Source: Panopea generosa (taxonomy: Eukaryota > Mollusca > Bivalvia > Adapedonta > Hiatellidae). From it: a DNA stretch of 64,000 nt. This document shows, one piece after another, positions 5,536 to 60,900 of the stretch. The position numbers were made by a program, and so were the translations under genes. Within the stretch, counting starts at the first letter, position 1. Each line of letters starts with the position of its first letter. Where the stretch lies: the NCBI GenBank assembly GCA_029582155.1, contig CM055895.1, forward strand, positions 61,419,078 to 61,483,077. The letters run 5' to 3'. Below the pieces are notes generated by a model. It saw only the letters and a program-made list of their open reading frames with translations. It was not told the DNA's origin and did not search any database.

Positions 5536-5638
5536 ACCCGTGGACACAATATAGCATCCTTAGATCCACTTGGTATCTGTGATGCAGACCTGGACTCAGA
5601 AACCCCAAAGGAACTTGTCCTGGACAACTATTCGTTAG
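5536..5638 (+). CDS. OGDH: OGDH alternative exon A (Ca2+-motif form)
   Basis: The exon follows a ttgtag acceptor and ends before a gtaggt donor. It enters in phase 0 and leaves in phase 1. It reads [20 protein letters not shown] and then [14 protein letters not shown], matching the RGHH..QLDPLGILDADLDS segment of vertebrate OGDH. DADLDS is the motif proposed as a Ca2+ site in mammalian E1. A second GT lies 4 nt downstream (GTAGGTAA); using it would shift the frame into a stop. Exon B is its alternative. Confidence 0.9.
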
Positions 5639-8600
5639 GTAGGTAAAGTGGTGGCCATCTTGGCTGGTATCCATAACAACAGTGGGGAATTGTGGAAAAT
5701 ATATATGTATTAACATATATATACTTCCTTTTTTGTTTGTTGCTGTTTACTGTTTAATATTGTTTGCTGGCGATGCAGCAGGTGTTTCATGTTTGAATTG
5801 TTAGATATATATAGACACACTTAGGGTATCTTAGTAACCTAACTGTTGAATTGTGGGATATCCTGTTAGTATGCTATGTATGGCATCTTAGGTAGCTAGG
5901 TGCATGTCTGTGTGTACTAACTACCTGTGGTTAGCATAAAATAACCAAAACTTATATTTTTAGCAGGTAGACAAACCAGTCTGAGGGAGAAATAAATGGA
6001 GACAAACTTTACTAATCTTTTTTTTTTTTTTGGTAATATTATACTTCGTTTACAGAGGAAAGTTTTTAAAAATTTAAATTATTTCTTGCAGTATGTTAAA
6101 TACAAGTAGTGTTTTTAGATAGATTTTTGTTGTTAAAGGGACACACTGCAATGTTGAAACCAAATTTACAATTTACACATATTGACGCAGTATATCAATC
6201 TTTACACCCCCGTGAACATATAACCATTCTGAAATATTATTCTGCGTGTACAGCTATCTGAAACTTAATCTTTATGAAACTATTAATACATTTTGTAAAA
6301 CTACTGTAGTGGTGTGACATGTTAGTTTAGGGGAAAAAAAATACAATTTAAATTTTTCACGATTCTAGTGAAAACTGATGAAATAATAATTAAATTTTAA
6401 GCTCTTTATCCTGGTTGCCCACAATGAATGAGCGGAAAGACTACAAAGAGGAAAATTAAAAAGATTTTATTTTTCTCATCATTAAAAAATCATTAGGATT
6501 GGAGCTAAAAATAGGGTTTGCAGGGAAACCGAAACAAACACTTTTTTGTTATGCCTCGTTTAAAAAAATACACCAATATAGAGATGACAGTTAGGGTCTA
6601 TATATTAATACTGGGGTATTTTAACATCATTTGATTAATATAAGAGATATATATATATATATAGAAGCAGTTTTCAAAAACTTTGTTGTGTAAAATTTGA
6701 CCAAAATTGTTATGTGTCCCTTTGATGGTCAGGTATGCATCCCAGAATTTGGAAATCGTTAGGACTGCCCAGCTAGAAGATCAAGGACACAGATTTTTTA
6801 ACTAAGTATCTTTAAATCACAGTATAGTATGAATTATGTTTTCTTTCACAGACTGGTTGAAATTTTGACAATGTGGAACATGGGCGTGCTACACTACCTT
6901 AACTCTAGTCACCTTTTTGTTCTGTGTTAGTTAACTTATAAACAACCTTTCTTTTCAGCATTATAAGGTTCTTTCGAGCTTAGACACATTTTTTTAACTT
7001 CTCATACCCTAGACAGACTCATGGCCTGTTTGCAGATGCACTGGGTTGGCTTGGTAATCAGTTTTATGCAGACAGCTCCGTCATTACTCACATGAGCCTA
7101 TGCATCATTCGCCTATATTCTATATTAGTTAACACATGGTATGAAATCCAAGATGTCATGTATGATGTTTGTTAGATGGCAATTAACCTCATACACTGCC
7201 TATTCGTACGAAGTCATCAACACTAACCCTGTGGGTGCAAGCATGCCGTGAAGGTAATACACCGTACTTACTAGCCACTCATATGTTTTTGTTGTCTTTG
7301 AACTTTCCTTGTAGCTCCGAGGCCACCATTATGCTGACTTAGACCCACTTGGAATCACAAAACCCTTTCAAGAAGCACTCAAGCACCCAGAATTTGGTAA
7401 GGTGAAACTGACAAGTCCTTTTTTTATGGGACGTCTTGCATGATGTCATTGTGGACGGTCGGCTGGTTCGTTCTGGCGTTTAGCTTGCTATGTTTTAACA
7501 AGTTGATTTCACACTCCAAGACTTAATATCACATCACTAATAATTTATATAAGGCGTAGGTTATTAAGTTATATTAGTTTGTGGGTTCTGTTATTGTGAA
7601 TGTTGTACTGACCATTTCTAGAGCAGCTTTTTAATGTGCATGCACTTTGGGCTTTCAATATGATGATGTTTTGTGTTGTATAATCTTGTTGGTACTTTCA
7701 TAATTATATGAGAAGTTCAAATATTTCCAATTCGCAGAAAAAGATTCTAAGACACTTGTAATGCTTCTACTCAACTGGTCTATAGGGTAAATATGTGATA
7801 TTTTATACAGTGTGTTTGTGTGTGTATAAGAAATACAACACTATTGGCAAGGGTGTTGCATATTTCAAGCCAGTCTTTTCGTGCTAGGAAAATAATTGTA
7901 CTAACAATTTTTTGAGAATGCCGGGAACTTTTACTCATTTCATTTTGCAAGTTTGCAAGTGCTGCTTTCACTCCCTGCATACATTTACAATGTCCTTTTC
8001 TGAAAAAACCTGAGACGTAAATTTAATCCCTTCATGCAGTTTCAATGTAATTATTTGATTTATATGAAAAAAATAAATTGAGACATACATGTGTTACACT
8101 ATATTTTTAGCTCACCTGAGCAAAGCCCAATGTTAGCTGTTCTGATCATCCTGTGCCCGCCTATTGTCCTGTCATTAACTTTTGAAACTGTTTGACAGTT
8201 TCAGCAAATTTGGTGTGAAACATTGTTTCATAAAGTTCCCTCAAGCTTGTTCAAATCAATTTGACCCCACCCCAGGTCTTATCAGGTTTGTTTCTTCAAA
8301 ATTTCAAAAATATATTTCTCTGAAAATGTAAGGCATGGAGCTTTGATATTTTGCATGTAGTATCACCTGATATCAGTTTCTCTCAGATTTGTTCAAGCCA
8401 TGACACTAGGGTCAATATTTACCCGCCCAAGGAACAGTTTATAATAGGGAAATTTTCATTAAAATACTTTTCTCAAGAACTGACCAGCCAAATTTGTTTA
8501 TATTTAGTATAAATGGTCGCTATGAAAAGGGTTTTTAAATTTGTTCAAATAAAGGGGTTCGGTTCCATTGGGGTCCAGTAAAGTGATTTTGATTTTTACA

Positions 8601-27900: not shown

Positions 27901-30900
27901 TGGTAACCTAGCAGTTAAATTATAATGGCCTTATGCAGTTTTTCTTCAGCTTTATATCAAGCACAGTTTTTAGCTTAGTGCATCTTCCTTATACATTGCC
28001 TGTATATTAGCATTGATGACCTAAAGGGATGGCTTCTGCATTGTCTTGTCTCCGACACAGCGATCATAAACACACTATTTAATACATGTTATAAATATAA
28101 ACGTATACTATATGATTATCATATGTGTGTGAAATAACTGAAATTCAGTTGAATAAAGGCGTAAAACAACATACAAACAAATGCAAAACAAGAAAACCAA
28201 CAATCAAGAGCAAATAATTTGTTTTAGAACGAGAGCTATATCTCATATTTTCTACATGTTTGTGAGTTCAGCTTTATTTTAATGCACATTGTTCTTTGTT
28301 CCTGTACTTACAAGCTGTTTAAGTACTTCCCAGATGATTTACTACTGGCTTGATTATGTTGGCTCCCTGGTGTTTAAAATCTTACCAACAAAATTGTTTG
28401 AATGAGAAGCGCACATCCTATTATGATGAAAACCTCTACATTTCTTAGGACAATTGATTGATTGCTTAATTTAGCGTCATTTTTATGCCATCAAGGGCTA
28501 ACAGACGATCAGTTAACCTAACCACTGTTTCCTGGGATTAACCAGTACTCGAGCACATCTCCACAAGTAACTGATAATTTTCCCACTTGAATCAGCGGTG
28601 AGGGATGAATGATAATGAGACACAATGTCATATATCAATCATCACAGAGACTGTTGCCGGGCGGGGATCCGAACTCACGACCCCTGGATTGAATCAGACG
28701 CATAACCGACTGAGCTAATTGGGCCCATCTTTCTTAGGACAAAAAATACTATTTCGCTGTACTGATTCGTTCATGAATTGGCTCAAATTTAAAAAAAGTG
28801 TGATCATTGAATTTCATACATGTATTCCATGAATATTTTATTAAAGTTTGTGTGCAATGAGATATTTAACTAACGTATGTATTTCTTTGTATCTTTAGTT
28901 ACATGATTATCTTCGTTTTCTTAGTTTGTATTGATGCAAAAAGGTTATTTAATCGAGAGATCATCATGCTATTACACTTGAGCATTTTTTTGTTTATTCA
29001 TACTTTTCAAAATCAGATGTAATTTGATAGGACAAAACTTTACAAAAGCAATAGAAAACCAATGGCTATAAACTGTACCGCCTGTGTTACGAGGGCCAGA
29101 ACTTGACTGGCGAGTTAAGGCCCAGTTTATTTATAGATTTATACTCTAAAAGTTGATCAATGAAGCAAGCCAGACTGGAACATTGATATTAAAATTTGAA
29201 TGTCTGTGAATTTTTAATTAAGTATATAAATGTTTATCATCTGCTGTCAGACTTGTTTCACAAAACTGTATTAGAAGGCATAGGTTTGAATTCTGCTAAA
29301 AAATGGAACAAATCTGTCTTTGTTTTTGATAAGTCTGAATAAAGTATTGAAGAATGAATGTATAAACATTTTCTGTTTACATTGTGTAATGACACCAGTT
29401 TTGTTCTTGTGTTTTAGGTGAGGAAGATCTGAACAGAACATTCCGTCTGCCAGATACAACAAATATTGGAGGCAATGAACATGCTCTACCACTCCGTGAC
29501 ATCATTGACAGATTACAGGTCAGTCTTGTCATACTTCTATACAGCTAGAATGTGTATTGTCACTGATATTTCATGGTGTTTAAAGGAAGGATGAAATGAA
29601 TGGTTTAGATAACTTGTAAGGCTACACATACATGTAGCAATGTATTGAAATATTGGTGAATCGCAGTACCCTTCATAGCAATATGGCATATCATATCGGC
29701 TGTTTCTTTATCTGCAGTATTGCAATACAGAACGTAACCAACTAAAATACAATTTCCAACACAGAAGTATGCCTGTATAGTACTGTGTTGGCTTTAACAT
29801 ACACTCAGTGCTGAACTATAGCTAGTGTAGGGTATGATATAACATACACTCAGTGCTGAACTATAGCTAGTGTAGGGTATGATGTAACATACACTCAGTG
29901 CTGAACTATAGCTAGTGTAGGGTATGATGTAACATACACTCAGTGCTGAACTATAGCTAGTGTAGGGTATGATGTAACATACACTCAGTGCTGAACTATA
30001 GCTAGTGTAGGGTATGATGTAACATACACTCTGCTGAACTAAAGCTAGTGAAGGGTATGATGTAACAAACACTCAGTGCTGAACTAGAGCTAGTGAAGGG
30101 TATGATGTAACATACACTCAGTGCTGAACTATAGCTAGTGTAGGGTATGATGTAACATACACTCAGTGCTGATCAAAAGCTAGTGTAGGGTATGATGTAA
30201 CATACACTCAGTGCTGAACTAGAGCTAGTGTAGGGTATGATGTAACATACACTCAGTGCTGAACTAGAGCTAGTGACGGGTATGATGTAACATACACTCA
30301 GTGCTGAATTAAAGCAAGTGTAGGGTATGATGTAACATACACTCGGTGCTGAATTGGAGCTAGTGTAGGGTATGATGTAACATGCATTCAGTGCTGAATT
30401 AAAGCTAGTGTAGGGTATGATGTAACATACACTCAGTGCTGATCTAAAGCTAGTGTAGGGTATGATGTAACATACACTCAGTGCTGATCTAAAGCTAGTG
30501 TAGGGTATGATGTAACAAACACTCAGTGATGAACTAGAGCTAGTGAAGGGTATGATGTAATATACACTCAGTGCTGAACTAGAGCTAGTGTAGGGTATGA
30601 TGTAACAAACACTCAGTGCTGAACTAGAGCTAATGAAGGGTATGATGTAACATACACTCAGTGCTGAACTTAAGCAAGTACAGTGTACGATGTAACATAC
30701 TCTTGGTGCTGAACTAAAGCTAGTGTAGGGTATGATGTAATATACACTCAATGCTGAACTAGAGCTAGTGTAGGATATGATTAAACATACACTCAGTGCT
30801 GAACTAGAGCTAGTGTAGGGTATGATGTAACATACACTCAGTGCTGAACTAAAGCTTGTGGAGGGTATTATGTAACATACACTCAGTGCTGAACTAGAGC

Positions 30901-33900
30901 TAGGTAAGGTATGATGTAACATACACTCAGTGCTGAACTAGAGCTAGTGTAGGGTATGATGTAACAAACACTCAGTGCTGAACTAGAGCTAGGGTAGGGT
31001 ATGTTGAAACATACACTCAGTACTGAACAAGAGATAGTGTAGGGTATGATGTAACATACAGTCAGTGCTGAACTAGAGCTAGTGTAGGATATGATGAAAT
31101 ATACACTCAGTGCTGAACGAGAGCTAGTGAAGGGTATGATGTAACATACACTCAGTGCTGAACTAGAGCTAGTGAAGGGTATGATGTTAAATACACTTAG
31201 TGCTGAACTAGAGCTTATGAAGGGTATGATGTAACATACACTCAGTGCTGAACTATAGCTAGTGTAGGGTATTATTTGCTGAAAATCATCCATCCCGAAA
31301 ACAGAGTTTTTGTCATGATGAGTATATGAGAATATTTATTTTACAGTAAATACTAAATGTTAAAAGTTACTATAAAGTTACTGTCATCTGGAAGAGTAAA
31401 ACTGACTTAAATTAAAACTAAAAATGACCGTTTCGGAAGTTTAATGAGCCTTTAAACTGTATGTGCAATTTATAATCTGCCATGTGTTGTAAATGATGTC
31501 AATCTCATTATTTTAAAAAAAAAAAAGTGAATGGTGTCTAAGTTAACACTACATTGTATTTTATTGTATTTACTACAAACAATGCCTCATGGCCAGGGGG
31601 CGGATATTGGTGTTATCATTTCTATTACAAAACATTTACTGTAATCATATTGGGGGTTGAGTACATGTTTATCACTTTTATTACAGAACATTTACTGTTA
31701 TCATGTCAGGGGTTGAGTACATGTTTATCATTTCTATAACAGAACATTTACTGTAATCATGTCAGGAGTTAAATACATGTTTATTATTTCTATTACAGAA
31801 CATTTACTGTAATCATGTCAGGAGTTAAATACATATTTATCATTTCTATTACAGAACATTTATTGTAATCATATTGGGGGTGGAGTACATGTTTATCACT
31901 TTTATTACAGAACATTTACTGTTATCATGTCAGGAGTTGAGTACATGTTTATCATTTCTATAACAGAACATTTACTGTAATCATGTCAGGAGTTAAATAC
32001 ATGTTTATTATTTCTATTACAGAACATTTACTGTAATCATGTCAGGAGTTAAATACATGTTTATCATTTCTGTTACAGAACATTTACTGTAATCATGTCA
32101 GGGGTTGAGTACATGTTTATCATTTCTATTACAGAACATTTACTGTAATCATGTCAGGGGTTGAGTACATATTTATCATTTCTATTACAGAACATTAATT
32201 GTAATTACGTCAGGGGGTGGAGTACATGTTTATCATTTTGTTACAGAACATTTACTGTAATCATGTCAGGAGTTAAGTACATGTTTATCATTTCTATTAC
32301 AGAACATTCTCAGTAATCATATCGGGATTGAATACATGTTCATCATTTCTATTACAGAACATATACTATAATCATCTCAGGGGTTGAGTACATGATTATC
32401 ATTTCTATTACAGAACATCTACTGTAATCATGTCAGGGGTTAAGTACATGTTTATCATTTCTATTACAGAACATTTACTGTAATCATGTCAGGGGTTAAG
32501 TACATATTTATCATTTCTATTACAAAACATTTACTGTAATCATGTCAGGGGTTGAGTACATGTTTATCATTTTTATTACAGAACATCTACTGTAATCATA
32601 TCGGGGTTGAATACATGTTCATCATTTCTATTATAGAACATTTACTGTAATCATGTCAGGGGTTGAGTACATATTTATCATTTTTATTACAGAACATCTA
32701 CTGTAATCATATGGGGGTTTAATACTTGTTTATCATTTCTATTACAGAATATCTACTATAATCATGTCAGGGGTTGAGTACTTGTTTATCATTTCTATTA
32801 CAGAACATTTACTGTAATCATGTCAGGGGTTAAGTACATGTTTATCATTTTTATTACAGAACATCTACTGTAATCATATCGGGGTTTAATACTTGTTTAT
32901 CATTTCTATTACAGAACATCTACTATAATCATGTCAGGGGTTGAGTACATGTTTATCATTTCTATTACAGAACATTTACTGTAATCATGTCAGGGGTTAA
33001 GTACATGTTTATCATTTCTATTACAGAACATCTACTGTAATCATGTCAGGGGTTGAGTACTTGTTTATCATTTCTATTCCAGAACATTTACTGTAATCAT
33101 GTCAGGGGTTAAGTACATGTTTATCATTTCTATTACAGAACATTTACTGTAATCATGTCAGGGGTTGAGTACATGTTTATCATTTTCTATTACAGAACAT
33201 TTACTGTAATCATGTCAGGGGTTGAGTACATATTTATCATTTCTATTACAGAACATCTACTGCAATCATATCGGGGTTGAGTACTTGTTTATCATTTCTA
33301 TTACAGAACATCTACTGCAATCATATCGGGGTTTAGTACATGTTTATCATTTCTATTATAGAACATCTACTGTAATCATATCGGGGTTTAGTACTTGTTT
33401 ATCATTTCTATTACAGAACATCTACTGTAATCATATCGGGGTTGAGTACATGTTTATCATTTCTATTACAGAACATCTACTGTAATCATATCGGGGTTGA
33501 GTACATGTTTATCATTTCTATTACAGAACATCTACTGCAATCATATCGGGGTTTAGTACATGTTTATCATTTCTATTACAGAACATCTACTGTAATCATA
33601 TCGGGGTTTAGTACTTGTTTATCATTTCTATTACAGAACATCTACTGCAATCATATCGGGGTTGAGTACATGTTTATCAACAACCAGGAGCAGACAGACT
33701 GGATCAAGAGGAAATTTGAGACGCCGGGCATCATGCAATTTGATAAGGAAGAGAAGGGTCTCATTCTAGCCCGACTTATACGTTCCACAAGGTACAATAG
33801 CATGATTGGACACCAGTTTATTATTATGTTTTTGAAAAATGTAGCAGACATATTATTAAGCCATCCTTAAAACTTGCCATTGCAGAGGAAGTGGGTCAGT

Positions 33901-45900: not shown

Positions 45901-48900
45901 AAACAGATGCCAAAACATGACTTTGGACTGGGGTAACAATGGATTGTGAACATCACTAATCAGTCAACGTATAAAATTGTACATTTTCATAAAGCCAAAA
46001 CTTTTACCTTCAAGTGCTGTGTAACCCCAATGTTATAGATCGTCAATCTCTACAGTGTTTTTTTTTCACTATTTTGGAAAGATGATCCATACCCTTGGAA
46101 ATTGGAATTTTAGCAGCATTTTCATTAACATTTGGAAAACTTTGGCATTAAATATATTTGTTCAACTTCATAAACATGTGTACACTTGCTTCTCTGGCCA
46201 TTTAATTAAAGAATGAATGCCATACTCAATTCAATATGAGGAAAACTTTGATTATTTTTATCAAGGAATTATGGCAAGTTCCAATTTACAACTATTAAAG
46301 CTTTCAACTGGGAATTTGTACCACTCAATTTGGGAAAAAAAGGTACTATTTGCCATTGAGAATATGACCCAATAACGGCTTTAAATATGGCCAAAAAAAC
46401 ACTGCTCTATCAACTTGTAGAGCAAGTTAAGGATTATCTTTAAGCTATGGCTTTGTCACAATCATCATAAGAAATACAGGTTATAGAAACCATTTCATAT
46501 TTGTGTGTACTAAGTTTTCTTACATTTTTTTAAATAAGATAGAAGATTTCATATCATTGATTTTTGTAGCAAAAGGATTTCTTTAAAAAAAAAAATTTTT
46601 TTTTTTTTTTAATGCGATTTTAACACCATTTTCGACAGATTGCAGGTTATAGTATTTGTTTATAGTAGTGTCGCCCTTATTGAAAGGGTCAGCCACACTT
46701 GGCTTATGAGAGACACCTTTATGCTGTACACAGTTACTTCTCGAAAGCTATCATTGCCAGGCGTAACGCTGGTAGACGTTCAGTACCCCTCGATTTAACT
46801 TGCTGCTGAGTGAGCAGCTGGCTGCATCAGAAAAAATCCAAGTGCTTCCACTGAGATTCAAACTTTTGACCTCCCGCCGACCCACTAGGCCACAGAAGAC
46901 GGTTATATATGGCATATCCAGTTTAATTGGTGGAAGAAGACCTCAGAATGAATCTGAGTAGAACCACCGTCCTTCCACAAGTAACTGGCAAATTTTCTCA
47001 CATAGTTTTTGGAGTGAGCGGTACTCGAACGTACAACCTAAACAGTAAGTGGCACCTTAGACCACTCGGCCAAGGAGGATATCTGAAACAATTACTGAAT
47101 ACAGCTTTAAAATCTTGAGTTACAAATAGGAATTGGCATTTGTATATTGTAGCAATTATTACGTAATACAATTTAGTCTCTTTTATTAGAATATTGCAGC
47201 AATTATTACGTAATATAATTTAGTTACTTTCATAAGAGTATTGGAGCAATTATTACGTAATATGATTTAGTTACTTTCATTAGAGTATTGGGGCAATTAT
47301 TACGTAATACAATTTAGTCTCTTTCATTAGAATATTGCAGCAATTATTACGTAATATAATTTAGTAACTTTCATTAGAGTGTTGGGGCAATAATTACGTA
47401 TTACAATTTAGTCTCTTTCATTAGAATATTGCAGCAATTATTACGTAATATGATTTAGTCACTTTCATTAATAGACTATTGCAGCAATTATTACGTAATA
47501 TAATTTATTCACTTTCATAAGACTATTGGAGCAATTATTACGTAATACAATTTAGTCACTTTCGTTAGAATATTGGAGCATTGATAATGTAATACAATTT
47601 AGTAACTTTGGTTAGAATATTGTAGTAACAGTTACATATATATTTTAGTCAGTGTTTTTTTCAATATTTTAGAAAAAGTTTCATATACAATGTAATTCAG
47701 TCAGTGTTTTTTGAATATTTTAGAAAAAGTTTCATGTATATTTCAGTCAGTGTTTTTAAAATAATTTAAAAAAAGTTTTATATATATATTTCAGTCACCG
47801 ACATCATGTGCTGCACCACCAAAAAGTTGATAAGGACATGTATGTAGCATTGAACAACTTATATAAGGGTCAGGCCCCTTACACGGTGTGCAACAGCTCG
47901 CTGTCCGAGTATGGAGTCCTGGGTAATTTCATTGTTTCTATAATCTTCCAGAAATCTGGCTGAATATTTATTCACTTGTTAGTCCCCCTACCAGTCTCTC
48001 CAGAGGAGACTATAGGTTTACCCTCCGTCTGTCTGTTAAACAGTGTCTGGCTGGCTGGACTAGTTATATCCCCAGATACAAAGTATATGGGGGCTTTATA
48101 GGAGTCACGCTTGTCCCTCTGTCCGTCAGTTAGTGTGTCGACAATTTTTGTGATCACTATTTCTCCATAACCTTTTCATTGAAACTTCACTTGGGTGACT
48201 GGTACCAAGCTTAGTTGTGCATATTGTTGGCATGTTGCACACAAATAATTTTTCATTGAGTTATGGACCTTGGAATTTTTCTTACATATTCTGCTGTCTG
48301 CAGACAATTTTTGTGATCACTATTTCTCAGCAACCATTGGCATGAATTCAATGAAACTTTCCAAAGTGACTGGTACCAAGTGTAGTTGTGCATATTGTCA
48401 GCATGTTGCCTGAAAATAATTTTTCATTGAGTTACGGCTCTTGAATTTTTCATACATATTTTTTGTGGTCACTATTTCTCAGCAACCATTGGCTGGAATT
48501 TATCGAGACTTCACAAAAGCAATTGGTACCAAGCCTAGTTGTGCGTATCATCGGCATGTTGCGGGCAGCAAAAGGGTACAATAGCTGTGTTGGGGGGCCA
48601 TCTGGAGTTATTCATTACCTTCAGTAATATTTCTAGTTTATGAACTTTGCATGTGGATAGAGGGCATTTTATTTTTACAGTCGGTCAACAATTGTGGTTA
48701 CAATGGCAACAAAATAGGTAAAATTACAGATGCAACCTGAATCCCGTGGTAAAACAAAAAGTATCAAAGTTACATTTGGTGAATTTTGGCATGTGGATAA
48801 AGGGTCTTGTTTAATTCAACTCTGGATATAAATGTTCTAGAAACTGATTAACAGTTTATATTCTAGAAACTATCCTTTGATTAACAGTTTATATTCTAGA

Positions 48901-57900: not shown

Positions 57901-60900
57901 GATAATTTTTATGAATGTATAGCATAAAAGCAACATTTGCATCAATGCATTGCACATGTGACATGACTGAAATATGCCATTAGACTATTAATTTTAATCT
58001 ATGCTAAATAGTAATGCAAGTAAATACATTCAAAAGAAATCTGGACATAAAAGCAGGTGATTGATAGCATTGTTTTTAAATATTTACAAAAAGCCCACCA
58101 GAAAAAGGTAGATCACTTTTGAATAGGATTGGAAAAATGAAAATTGGCCATTTAGTCTTAGTATCATAGTCAAGTATGAGCGATTTGTTTTATAATATCA
58201 TAGTCAAGTATGAGTGATTTGATTTATAATATCATAGCCAAGTATGAGTGATTTTATTTATAATATCATAGCCAAGTATGAGTGATTTGATTTATAATAT
58301 CATAGTCAAATATGAGTGATTTGATTTATAATATCATAGCCAAGTATGAGTGATTTGATTTATAATATCATAGTCATGTATGAAATATTTTATTTATAAT
58401 ATCATAGCCAAGTATGAGTGATTTGATTTATAATATCATAGCCAAGTATGAGTGATTTGATTTATAATATCATAGTCAAGTATGAAATATTTGATTTATA
58501 ATATCATGGTCAAGTATGAATTATTTGATTTATAATTTCATAGTCAAGTATGAGTGATTTGATTTATGAAATTATTTATGATATCATAGTCAAGTATGAG
58601 CAATTTGATTTATAATATCATAGCCAAGTATGATTGATTTGATTAATAATATCATAGTCAAGTGTGAGTGATTTGATTTATAATATTATAGTCATGTATG
58701 AGTGATTTGATTATTAATATCATAGCCAAGTATGGGTGATTTGATTCATAATTCCATAATCAAGTATGAGTGATTTGATTTATAATATCATAGTCAAGTA
58801 TTAGTGATTTGATTTATAATATTATAGTCATGTATGAGTGATTTGATTATTAATATCATAGCCAAGTATGAGTGATTTGATTCATAATTCCATAGCCAAG
58901 TATGGGTGATTTTATTTATAATATCATAGTCAAGGATGAGTGATTTGATTGATTCGATTTATAACATCATAGTCAAGTATGAGTGATTTGATTTATAATT
59001 TCATAGTCAAGTATCAGTGATTTGATTTATAATATTATACTCGTGTATGAGTGATTTGATTTATAATATCATAGTCAAGTATGAGTGATTTGATTGATTC
59101 GATTTATAATATCATAGTCAAGTATGAGTGATTTGATTTATAATTTCATAGTCAAGTATGAGTGATTTGATTTATAATTTCATAGCCAAGTATGAGTGAT
59201 TTGATTTATAATATTATAGTCAAGTATGAGTGGTTTGATTTATAATTCCATAGTCAAGTGTGAGTGATTTGATTTATAATATTATAGTCAAGTATGAGTG
59301 ATTTGATATATAATTCCATTGTCAAGTATGAGTGATTTGATTTATAATATCATAGTCAAGTATGAGTGATTTGATTTATAATATCATAGCAAAGTATGAG
59401 TGATTTGATTCATAATTCCATAGTCAAGTATGAGTGATTTGATTTATAATATCATAGCCAAGTATGAGTATTTGATTTATAATATCATAGTTAAGTATGA
59501 GTGATTTTATTAATAATATCATAGTCAAGTATGGGTGATTTGATTCATAATTCCATAATCAAGTATGAGTGATTTGATTTATAATATCATAGTCAAGTAT
59601 GAGTGATTTGATTTATAATTCCATAGTCAAGTATGAGTGATTTGATTTATAATATCATAGCCAAGTATGGGTGATTTGACTCATAATTCCATAGTCAAGT
59701 ATGAGTGATTTGATTTATAATATCATAGTCAAGTATGAGTGATTTGATTTATAATATCATAGCCAAGTATGGGTGATTTGATTCATAATTCCATAGTCAA
59801 ATATGAGTGATTTGATATATAATATCATAGTCAAATATGAGTGATTTGATTTATAATATCATAGCTAAGTATGGGTGATTTGATTCATAATTCCATAGTC
59901 AAGTATGAGTGATTTGATTTATAATATCATAGTCAAGTATGAGTGATTTGATTTATAATATCATAGCCAACAATGGGTGATTTGATTCATAATTCCATAA
60001 TCAAGTATGAGTGATTTGATTTATAATATCATAGTCAAGTATGAGTGATTTGATTTATAATTCCATAGTCAAGTATGAGTGATTTGATTTATAATATCAT
60101 AGCCAAGTATGAGTGATTTGATTCATAATTCCATAGTCAAGTATGAGTGATTTGATTTATAATAGCATAGCCAAGTATGAGTGATTTGATTCATTATTCC
60201 ATAGTCAAGTATGAGTGATTTGATTCATAATTCCATAGTCAAGTATGAGTGATTTGATTTATAATTCCATAGTCAAGTATGAGTGATTTGATTTATAATA
60301 TCATAGCCAAGTATGAGTATTTGATTCATAATTCCATTGTCATGTATGACATTTATAATAATTATCACTTTGTGTTATTATGTTATATATATCATCTCCC
60401 ATATTTTACAGTTGGTTATAATGACCCCAAAGAGTTTACTTCGTTTGCCAGAGGCTCGTTCCAGTTTTGATGAGATGGATGAAGGCACGTGTTTCCAGCG
60501 ACTGATACCAGAGGCTGGTGTTGCGTCCGACAACCCAGGTAGTGTGAAGAAGGTGATTTTCTGTAGCGGCAAAGTGTATTATGACCTTGTCAAAGAGAGA
60601 GAGAAGATGCACATGCAGGACAACATCGCCATTTCCAGAATAGAACAGGTCAGTTGTTAGAATAGAACAAGTGAGTTGTTACAATAAAACTGATGAGTTG
60701 TCAGAATACAATCTGTGATATGCAGGCTGTCAATCAAGGAAGTCAGTAAGCAAATCAGCGATCAATAATGCCATATTCCTGACATGCTGACAGTCTCTGA
60801 GTCAACGAGATATTGACTTTACTTGGACAAACAACGTTTATGTAACCAGTGGGTGGAGAGATAGTCTTTCTCTCATCAGTTCAATTCGTTCTTTAATCCA

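Follow-up and report, generated by a model that had tools for sequence, protein, structure and literature searches.

Tandem repeats that run across exon-intron boundaries have been described as mirages, a name given in the Adh3 gene of amphioxus, and are also present in amphioxus globin, troponin C, and PGBD5 genes (PMC3087553 and PMC3902484). The repeat units of the Adh3 mirage are given as 10–72 bp, and in amphioxus such repeats apparently leave regular splicing undisturbed (PMC3087553). A comparable situation is found in human factor VII, where normally only the most upstream, exon-nearest site of a series of repeated donors is used (PMC6627357). Here we describe a minisatellite that spans the acceptor of exon D of the OGDH gene in the bivalve Panopea generosa. 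It lies in a window of 64,000 nucleotides (GenBank assembly GCA_029582155.1, contig CM055895.1, positions 61,419,078 to 61,483,077 of the forward strand), which is the whole stretch of DNA analysed and whose first base is position 1 of the coordinates used below. Our interpretation, which we consider probable, is that this is a splice-junction (mirage) minisatellite that was seeded by slippage and enlarged by block duplication, that selection acts on no copy but the coding one, and that splicing occurs at the exon-proximal site.

The + strand of the window carries most of an animal-type OGDH gene, to which human OGDH gives matches between 5539 and 63023. Exon D (33637–33791, + strand, 155 nt) is a genuine exon, the translation of 33637–33792 matching human OGDH (7wgr) with an E value of 1.5e-19. 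Its upstream partner, exon C (29418–29518, + strand), ends in the donor CAG/GTCAGT, and the phase at the end of exon C (29518) agrees with that of exon D. Tandem Repeats Finder reported a single array at 31613–33679 on the + strand with a period of 56, 37.1 copies, and 90% matches, corresponding to 37 units of 55–57 bp. When the window is scanned with a 20-base pattern that crosses the acceptor, allowing no more than 3 mismatches, there are 37 hits, all of them inside the array, and 0.01 would be expected by chance. Each unit consists of the last 12 bases of the intron (TTTCTATTACAG) followed by the first 43 bases of the exon, and no part of it is therefore foreign to the junction. In the 56-bp form the exon part has one extra base (44 in all), and one unit has an additional T in the intron part. 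The true exon is the final copy of the array, the first 43 nt of exon D being the exon part of the last unit. Upstream of the true exon start at 33637 stand 36 decoy acceptors (31631–33636, + strand), whose first exon-like bases run from 31631 to 33582 at a spacing of 55–57 bp. The AG dinucleotide is intact in 34 of the 36 decoys and is replaced by AA in two (31631 and 32526). An earlier sequence-only reading of this DNA had proposed an array of copies of the exon D acceptor with the exon as last unit, about 34 of 36 decoys keeping the AG; both points hold, and the case was if anything slightly understated. That reading also traced the unit correctly to the acceptor, but its estimate of about 30 coding bases was too low. 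The whole unit is junction sequence, and its origin from the exon D junction is supported.

Two DNA searches of the genome, by a method that skips very common words, found a single copy of the locus and the unit nowhere else. As far as these searches go, the array is not a member of a dispersed repeat family.

The array resembles the amphioxus mirages (BflGb6, BflGb9, Adh3, TnC, and PGBD5), in which many units keep the AG or GT and are partly homogenised (PMC3087553, PMC3902484). Here too the tandem unit crosses an exon-intron boundary with the true boundary as its terminal unit, the splice signal is carried by nearly all repeats, and partial homogenisation is seen in block copies and in an effect of position, the unit tree itself being poorly resolved. 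The OGDH array differs in that it belongs to a mollusc rather than a cephalochordate, and in size, with 37 units of 55–57 bp as compared with the 3 and 6 units of 150–160 bp given for the two haplotypes of BflGb6. By its structural features, the OGDH array is a very large mirage in another phylum and an instance of a kind already described, which extends mirages from lancelets to a mollusc. The suggestion that no such array had been described is not supported, both because of the amphioxus cases (PMC3087553 and PMC3902484) and because 11 arrays of this type were found in the window and a genome sample, as described below.

In intron 7 of human F7, an exon edge likewise carries repeats that closely resemble one another, with a unit of 37 bp, and the exon-nearest site is normally the one used (PMC6627357). 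The F7 repeats are on the donor side, whereas the exon D array is on the acceptor side and contains no donor-site unit of the F7 type; the small array at exon P is donor-side. The F7 repeats are presumably also fewer in copy number than the OGDH units. In F7 the first site met in transcription wins, whereas in OGDH the last would have to win. The ABCA7 variable number tandem repeat and the intronic minisatellites of C. elegans are likewise intronic tandem repeats linked to splicing; among the matches listed, none is described as having units derived from the splice site of the adjoining exon. No splice-junction minisatellite was found for a mollusc among the titles and abstract beginnings of the matches listed, which come from open-licence papers and make this a weak absence, and a bivalve-directed query of open-licence papers for such repeats returned nothing.

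The exon is regarded as the source and the array as the copy because the protein is conserved, and because the unit consists entirely of junction sequence whose coding part matches the conserved enzyme. Both edges of the array carry the motif TTATCA, at 31613–31618 on the distal side, the proposed seed repeat, and at 33674–33679 on the exon side within exon D (both + strand), and similarity ends abruptly beyond both. The ancestral junction may accordingly have held TTATCA twice, 55 bp apart, in the intron end and in exon D, and slippage between these two 6-bp direct repeats could have copied the acceptor together with 43 coding bases. Later growth would have proceeded by the copying of single units and of blocks of three or four, and the block copies are directly visible. 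With units numbered upstream from the exon copy (0), block −36 to −33 differs from block −32 to −29 at 3, 1, 0, and 1 columns at the distal end, block −17 to −15 from block −14 to −12 at 1, 2, and 0 columns in the middle, and block −7 to −4 from block −3 to 0 at 2, 0, 1, and 1 columns at the exon edge. Growth was therefore not confined to the exon edge, and strict growth from the exon by one unit at a time is rejected by these blocks. The proximal block, including the exon copy, is probably among the most recently copied parts. Identity of the decoys to the exon climbs toward the exon (Spearman 0.754, n = 36, the units being non-independent), units close together resemble one another somewhat more than distant ones do (Mantel rho 0.215, with 1 of 2000 permutations as high), and the exon copy groups among the proximal units in the unit tree. 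Exon-type units also occur far from the exon, at −24, −19, −17, and −14. The earlier proposal that the proximal units are the most exon-like is thus upheld, whereas the growth from the exon edge deduced from it is supported only in part.

Repeats are frequently misassembled, and a false expansion or shuffling of the repeat in the assembly is one alternative explanation. One amphioxus mirage was itself misassembled (PMC3087553). We consider such an artefact very improbable for the OGDH array, as the mean difference between adjacent units is about 9%, the window contains no N, and the genome (1.47 Gb) is assembled in 39 contigs, one of them of 100 Mb. The exact number of units in the assembly may nevertheless be inaccurate.

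How a spliceosome chooses among equal sites is an old question, for which built constructs, or natural cases like that of factor VII, have been the usual material. Conserved genes with arrays of 30 or more near-identical sites offer natural tests, with scanning from upstream predicting use of the first acceptor and exon definition predicting use of the last. We scored the acceptors with a textbook consensus weight matrix, and 24 of the 36 decoys equalled or exceeded the true acceptor. The 37 acceptors would be near-equal as sequence in the RNA. If splicing went to the first AG that follows a branch point upstream, it would hit the distal decoys and yield truncated messages. The last acceptor must be used often enough, because OGDH is a core enzyme and the exon is intact. 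It would most likely be chosen through pairing with the exon D donor across 155 nt, i.e. exon definition by proximity, and such pairing appears to be the simplest account of the choice of site. The genome was also searched with joined exons C, D, and E for a spliced retrocopy that would reveal the acceptor used, and none was found. When the decoys are translated in the phase set by exon C, the first stop falls at codon 10 in 29 of the 36, at codon 23 in three, at codon 42 in two, and at codon 78 in one, and one has none; the corresponding numbers for the 34 decoys with AG are 27, 3, 2, 1, and 1. The early estimate that nearly all decoys would run into a stop within about ten codons proved largely right. 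The one decoy without a stop is decoy −3 at 33472, 165 nt upstream of the true acceptor, from which three units (33472–33636, + strand) are stop-free and in frame with exon D; the frame stays open through exon D, and use of this site would add 55 residues. Products of the decoys would mostly be removed by nonsense-mediated decay.

The stops and the retained AGs are what would be expected of regulated unproductive splicing, in which the ladder of decoys is kept because transcripts using them are destroyed, so that the array sets OGDH output and its length tunes the share lost. A stop precedes the end of the exon in 35 of 36 decoys. The stops, however, arise from small changes. The 56-bp form (ATGTCAGGGG replacing ATATCGGGG) causes a frameshift, and several 55-bp units have TAG or TAA where GAG stands. 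Because one inserted base or a change of GAG to TAG suffices, selection is not required to explain the stops. The AG is also not special within the array. It is kept in 34 decoys, where the mean over column pairs is 29.9 with the exon copy as reference and 31.4 with the decoy consensus. Its mid-rank among all column pairs is 0.60 by both comparisons, and special conservation of the decoy AGs within the OGDH array is rejected. Over the 11 junction arrays, AG or GT is kept in 105 of the 111 decoys read, which leans in favour of retention, as the expected number is 91 (P = 0.06) by comparison with the exon copy and 98 (P = 0.13) with the decoy consensus. Similar arrays at both donors and acceptors of myosin and ABC-transporter genes argue against a role in setting OGDH output in particular, and we regard regulated unproductive splicing as improbable. 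The decoys look neutral, and as far as the DNA alone can tell they are without demonstrated function. Under the mirage interpretation, only the last copy would be coding, and selection on the protein would hold that copy while the decoys drift.

The apparent commonness of such arrays in the genome is the most interesting extension of this finding. Two more were found in the OGDH gene itself. The acceptor of exon L (true acceptor 47795) is crossed by an array of a 46-bp unit at 47615–47797 (+ strand), with three decoys that all have AG and units that reach only about 3 bases into the exon. At exon P, which ends at 60648, the donor is crossed by about 3 copies of a 22-bp unit at 60637–60708 (+ strand), with GT kept in one of two decoys. 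We then surveyed the genome through Pfam matches, examining 55 of the 81 to Myosin_head and 30 of the 57 to ABC_membrane, the best-scoring first, which gave 80 partly overlapping loci from two families; 19 AMP-binding matches were left out. Loci were read on the coding strand, with junctions predicted from sequence. A tandem array crosses the exon edge in 8 of the 85 sampled myosin and ABC-transporter exons (95% interval 4–18%), at the donor in L016, L034, L058, L060, L061, and L069 and at the acceptor in L021 and L033. L016 was mis-scored automatically and was counted by eye, and four loci were not counted, L030 abutting the junction without spanning it and L076, L077, and L084 lying near the edge. 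With the three arrays of OGDH, the total for window and sample is 11. The largest in the sample is an ABC-transporter donor array of about 2.5 kb (L060 and L080, G000:C18, ~12.580–12.583 Mb) with about 31 units of 80 bp, each made of the last 76 bases of the exon and 4 intron bases; GT is present in all 18 decoys read in L060. The OGDH array is therefore large yet not alone in scale. At a myosin-head donor (L058, G000:C6), a 29-bp unit extends over about 0.9 kb, with GT in 19 of 21 decoys read.

As a control, we drew points at random from the introns of these loci, some of which may lie in unannotated exons, and counted them as crossed in the same terminal manner as the junctions. Arrays made up 14% of the sampled bases (before reorientation, with overlaps counted twice). 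Of 170 edges in the 85 matches, 126 scored well enough to test and 44 were unscored. Seven of the 126 were crossed (2 acceptors and 5 donors), with 5.07 expected (1.89 acceptors and 3.18 donors; P = 0.23), or eight if L016 is included (P = 0.14). We conclude that junctions are struck about as often as intron points in general, with no clear excess or deficit. The counts bear on another explanation, that splice junctions are hot spots at which minisatellites arise, R-loops or breaks linked to splicing being a conceivable cause. In its favour, 3 of 36 OGDH exon edges are crossed where about 1 would be expected (P = 0.09; the stop-codon end of the last exon counts among the edges), and the pooled count of OGDH and survey is 11 against 6.1 (P = 0.047). 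OGDH, however, was chosen for its array, and the survey taken by itself does not clearly depart from chance; we consider hot spots unlikely. Junction arrays seem common in this genome. With moderate confidence, we propose that splice-junction minisatellites are pervasive and near-neutral here, affecting about one in ten exons in our small sample, at donors and acceptors alike, with arrays of up to about 31–37 sites from which the exon-proximal copy is taken. If many such arrays are tolerated, the choice of site would depend less on the sequence of the site than on its position and exon context, and a genome in which they are pervasive would amount to a series of natural experiments on spliceosomal choice between identical sites.

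Several observations weigh against the mirage interpretation or parts of it. The pooled junction counts lean above the null, in the direction of a weak enrichment, and the retention of dinucleotides over the 11 arrays leans above expectation, in the direction of weak selection. The 6-bp match of the array edges could be due to chance, and the state of the junction before the array was deduced from a single genome rather than from an outgroup. The unit tree resolves little, with good support for 3 of its 29 inner branches, and does not unite the proximal units in one group, distal units −17 and −14 lying with −5 and −1. Finally, it is conservation of the protein alone that points to use of the true acceptor.

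The intron between exons C and D is 4118 nt long, of which 2094 nt precede the exon D array, and 1478 of these are taken up by a neighbouring minisatellite of 33 copies of a 45-bp unit (29795–31272, + strand). An origin of this 45-bp array from an exon was rejected, as 167 of 200 shuffles scored as high as the unit did against 18 OGDH exon blocks. Tandem duplication of an exon piece with AG and GT has been put forward as a way in which introns are gained (PMC4974935 and PMC3087553), and the exon D array might be regarded as a trace of such an intron birth. Two copies of the exon piece should then bound the intron. Copies were found at the acceptor end only, the acceptor pattern has no match elsewhere in the window, and the unit matches 29419–31612 no better than shuffles do (25 of 200 as high). 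Intron birth is rejected on these grounds and is in our view scarcely credible.

Tandem arrays with a period of 10 or more make up 19% of the window. One of these, with 63 copies of a 34-bp unit at 58162–60349, lies directly upstream of exon P. Two alternative-looking OGDH exons at 5536–5638 and 7315–7396 encode one and the same protein segment, and the motif DADLD is present only in the first. They look like mutually exclusive exons. Outside the window, the genome contains four very similar myosin heavy chain genes, at ~63.32 and 63.36 Mb of G000:C14 and at ~64.83 and 64.89 Mb of G000:C2. One of them, compared with solved myosins, is of the muscle type and agrees with a molluscan source, its eight best-matching myosin sequences, which we take from their entry codes to be from squid and scallop, scoring 361–362 bits as compared with 305 for the next (Myosin-7).
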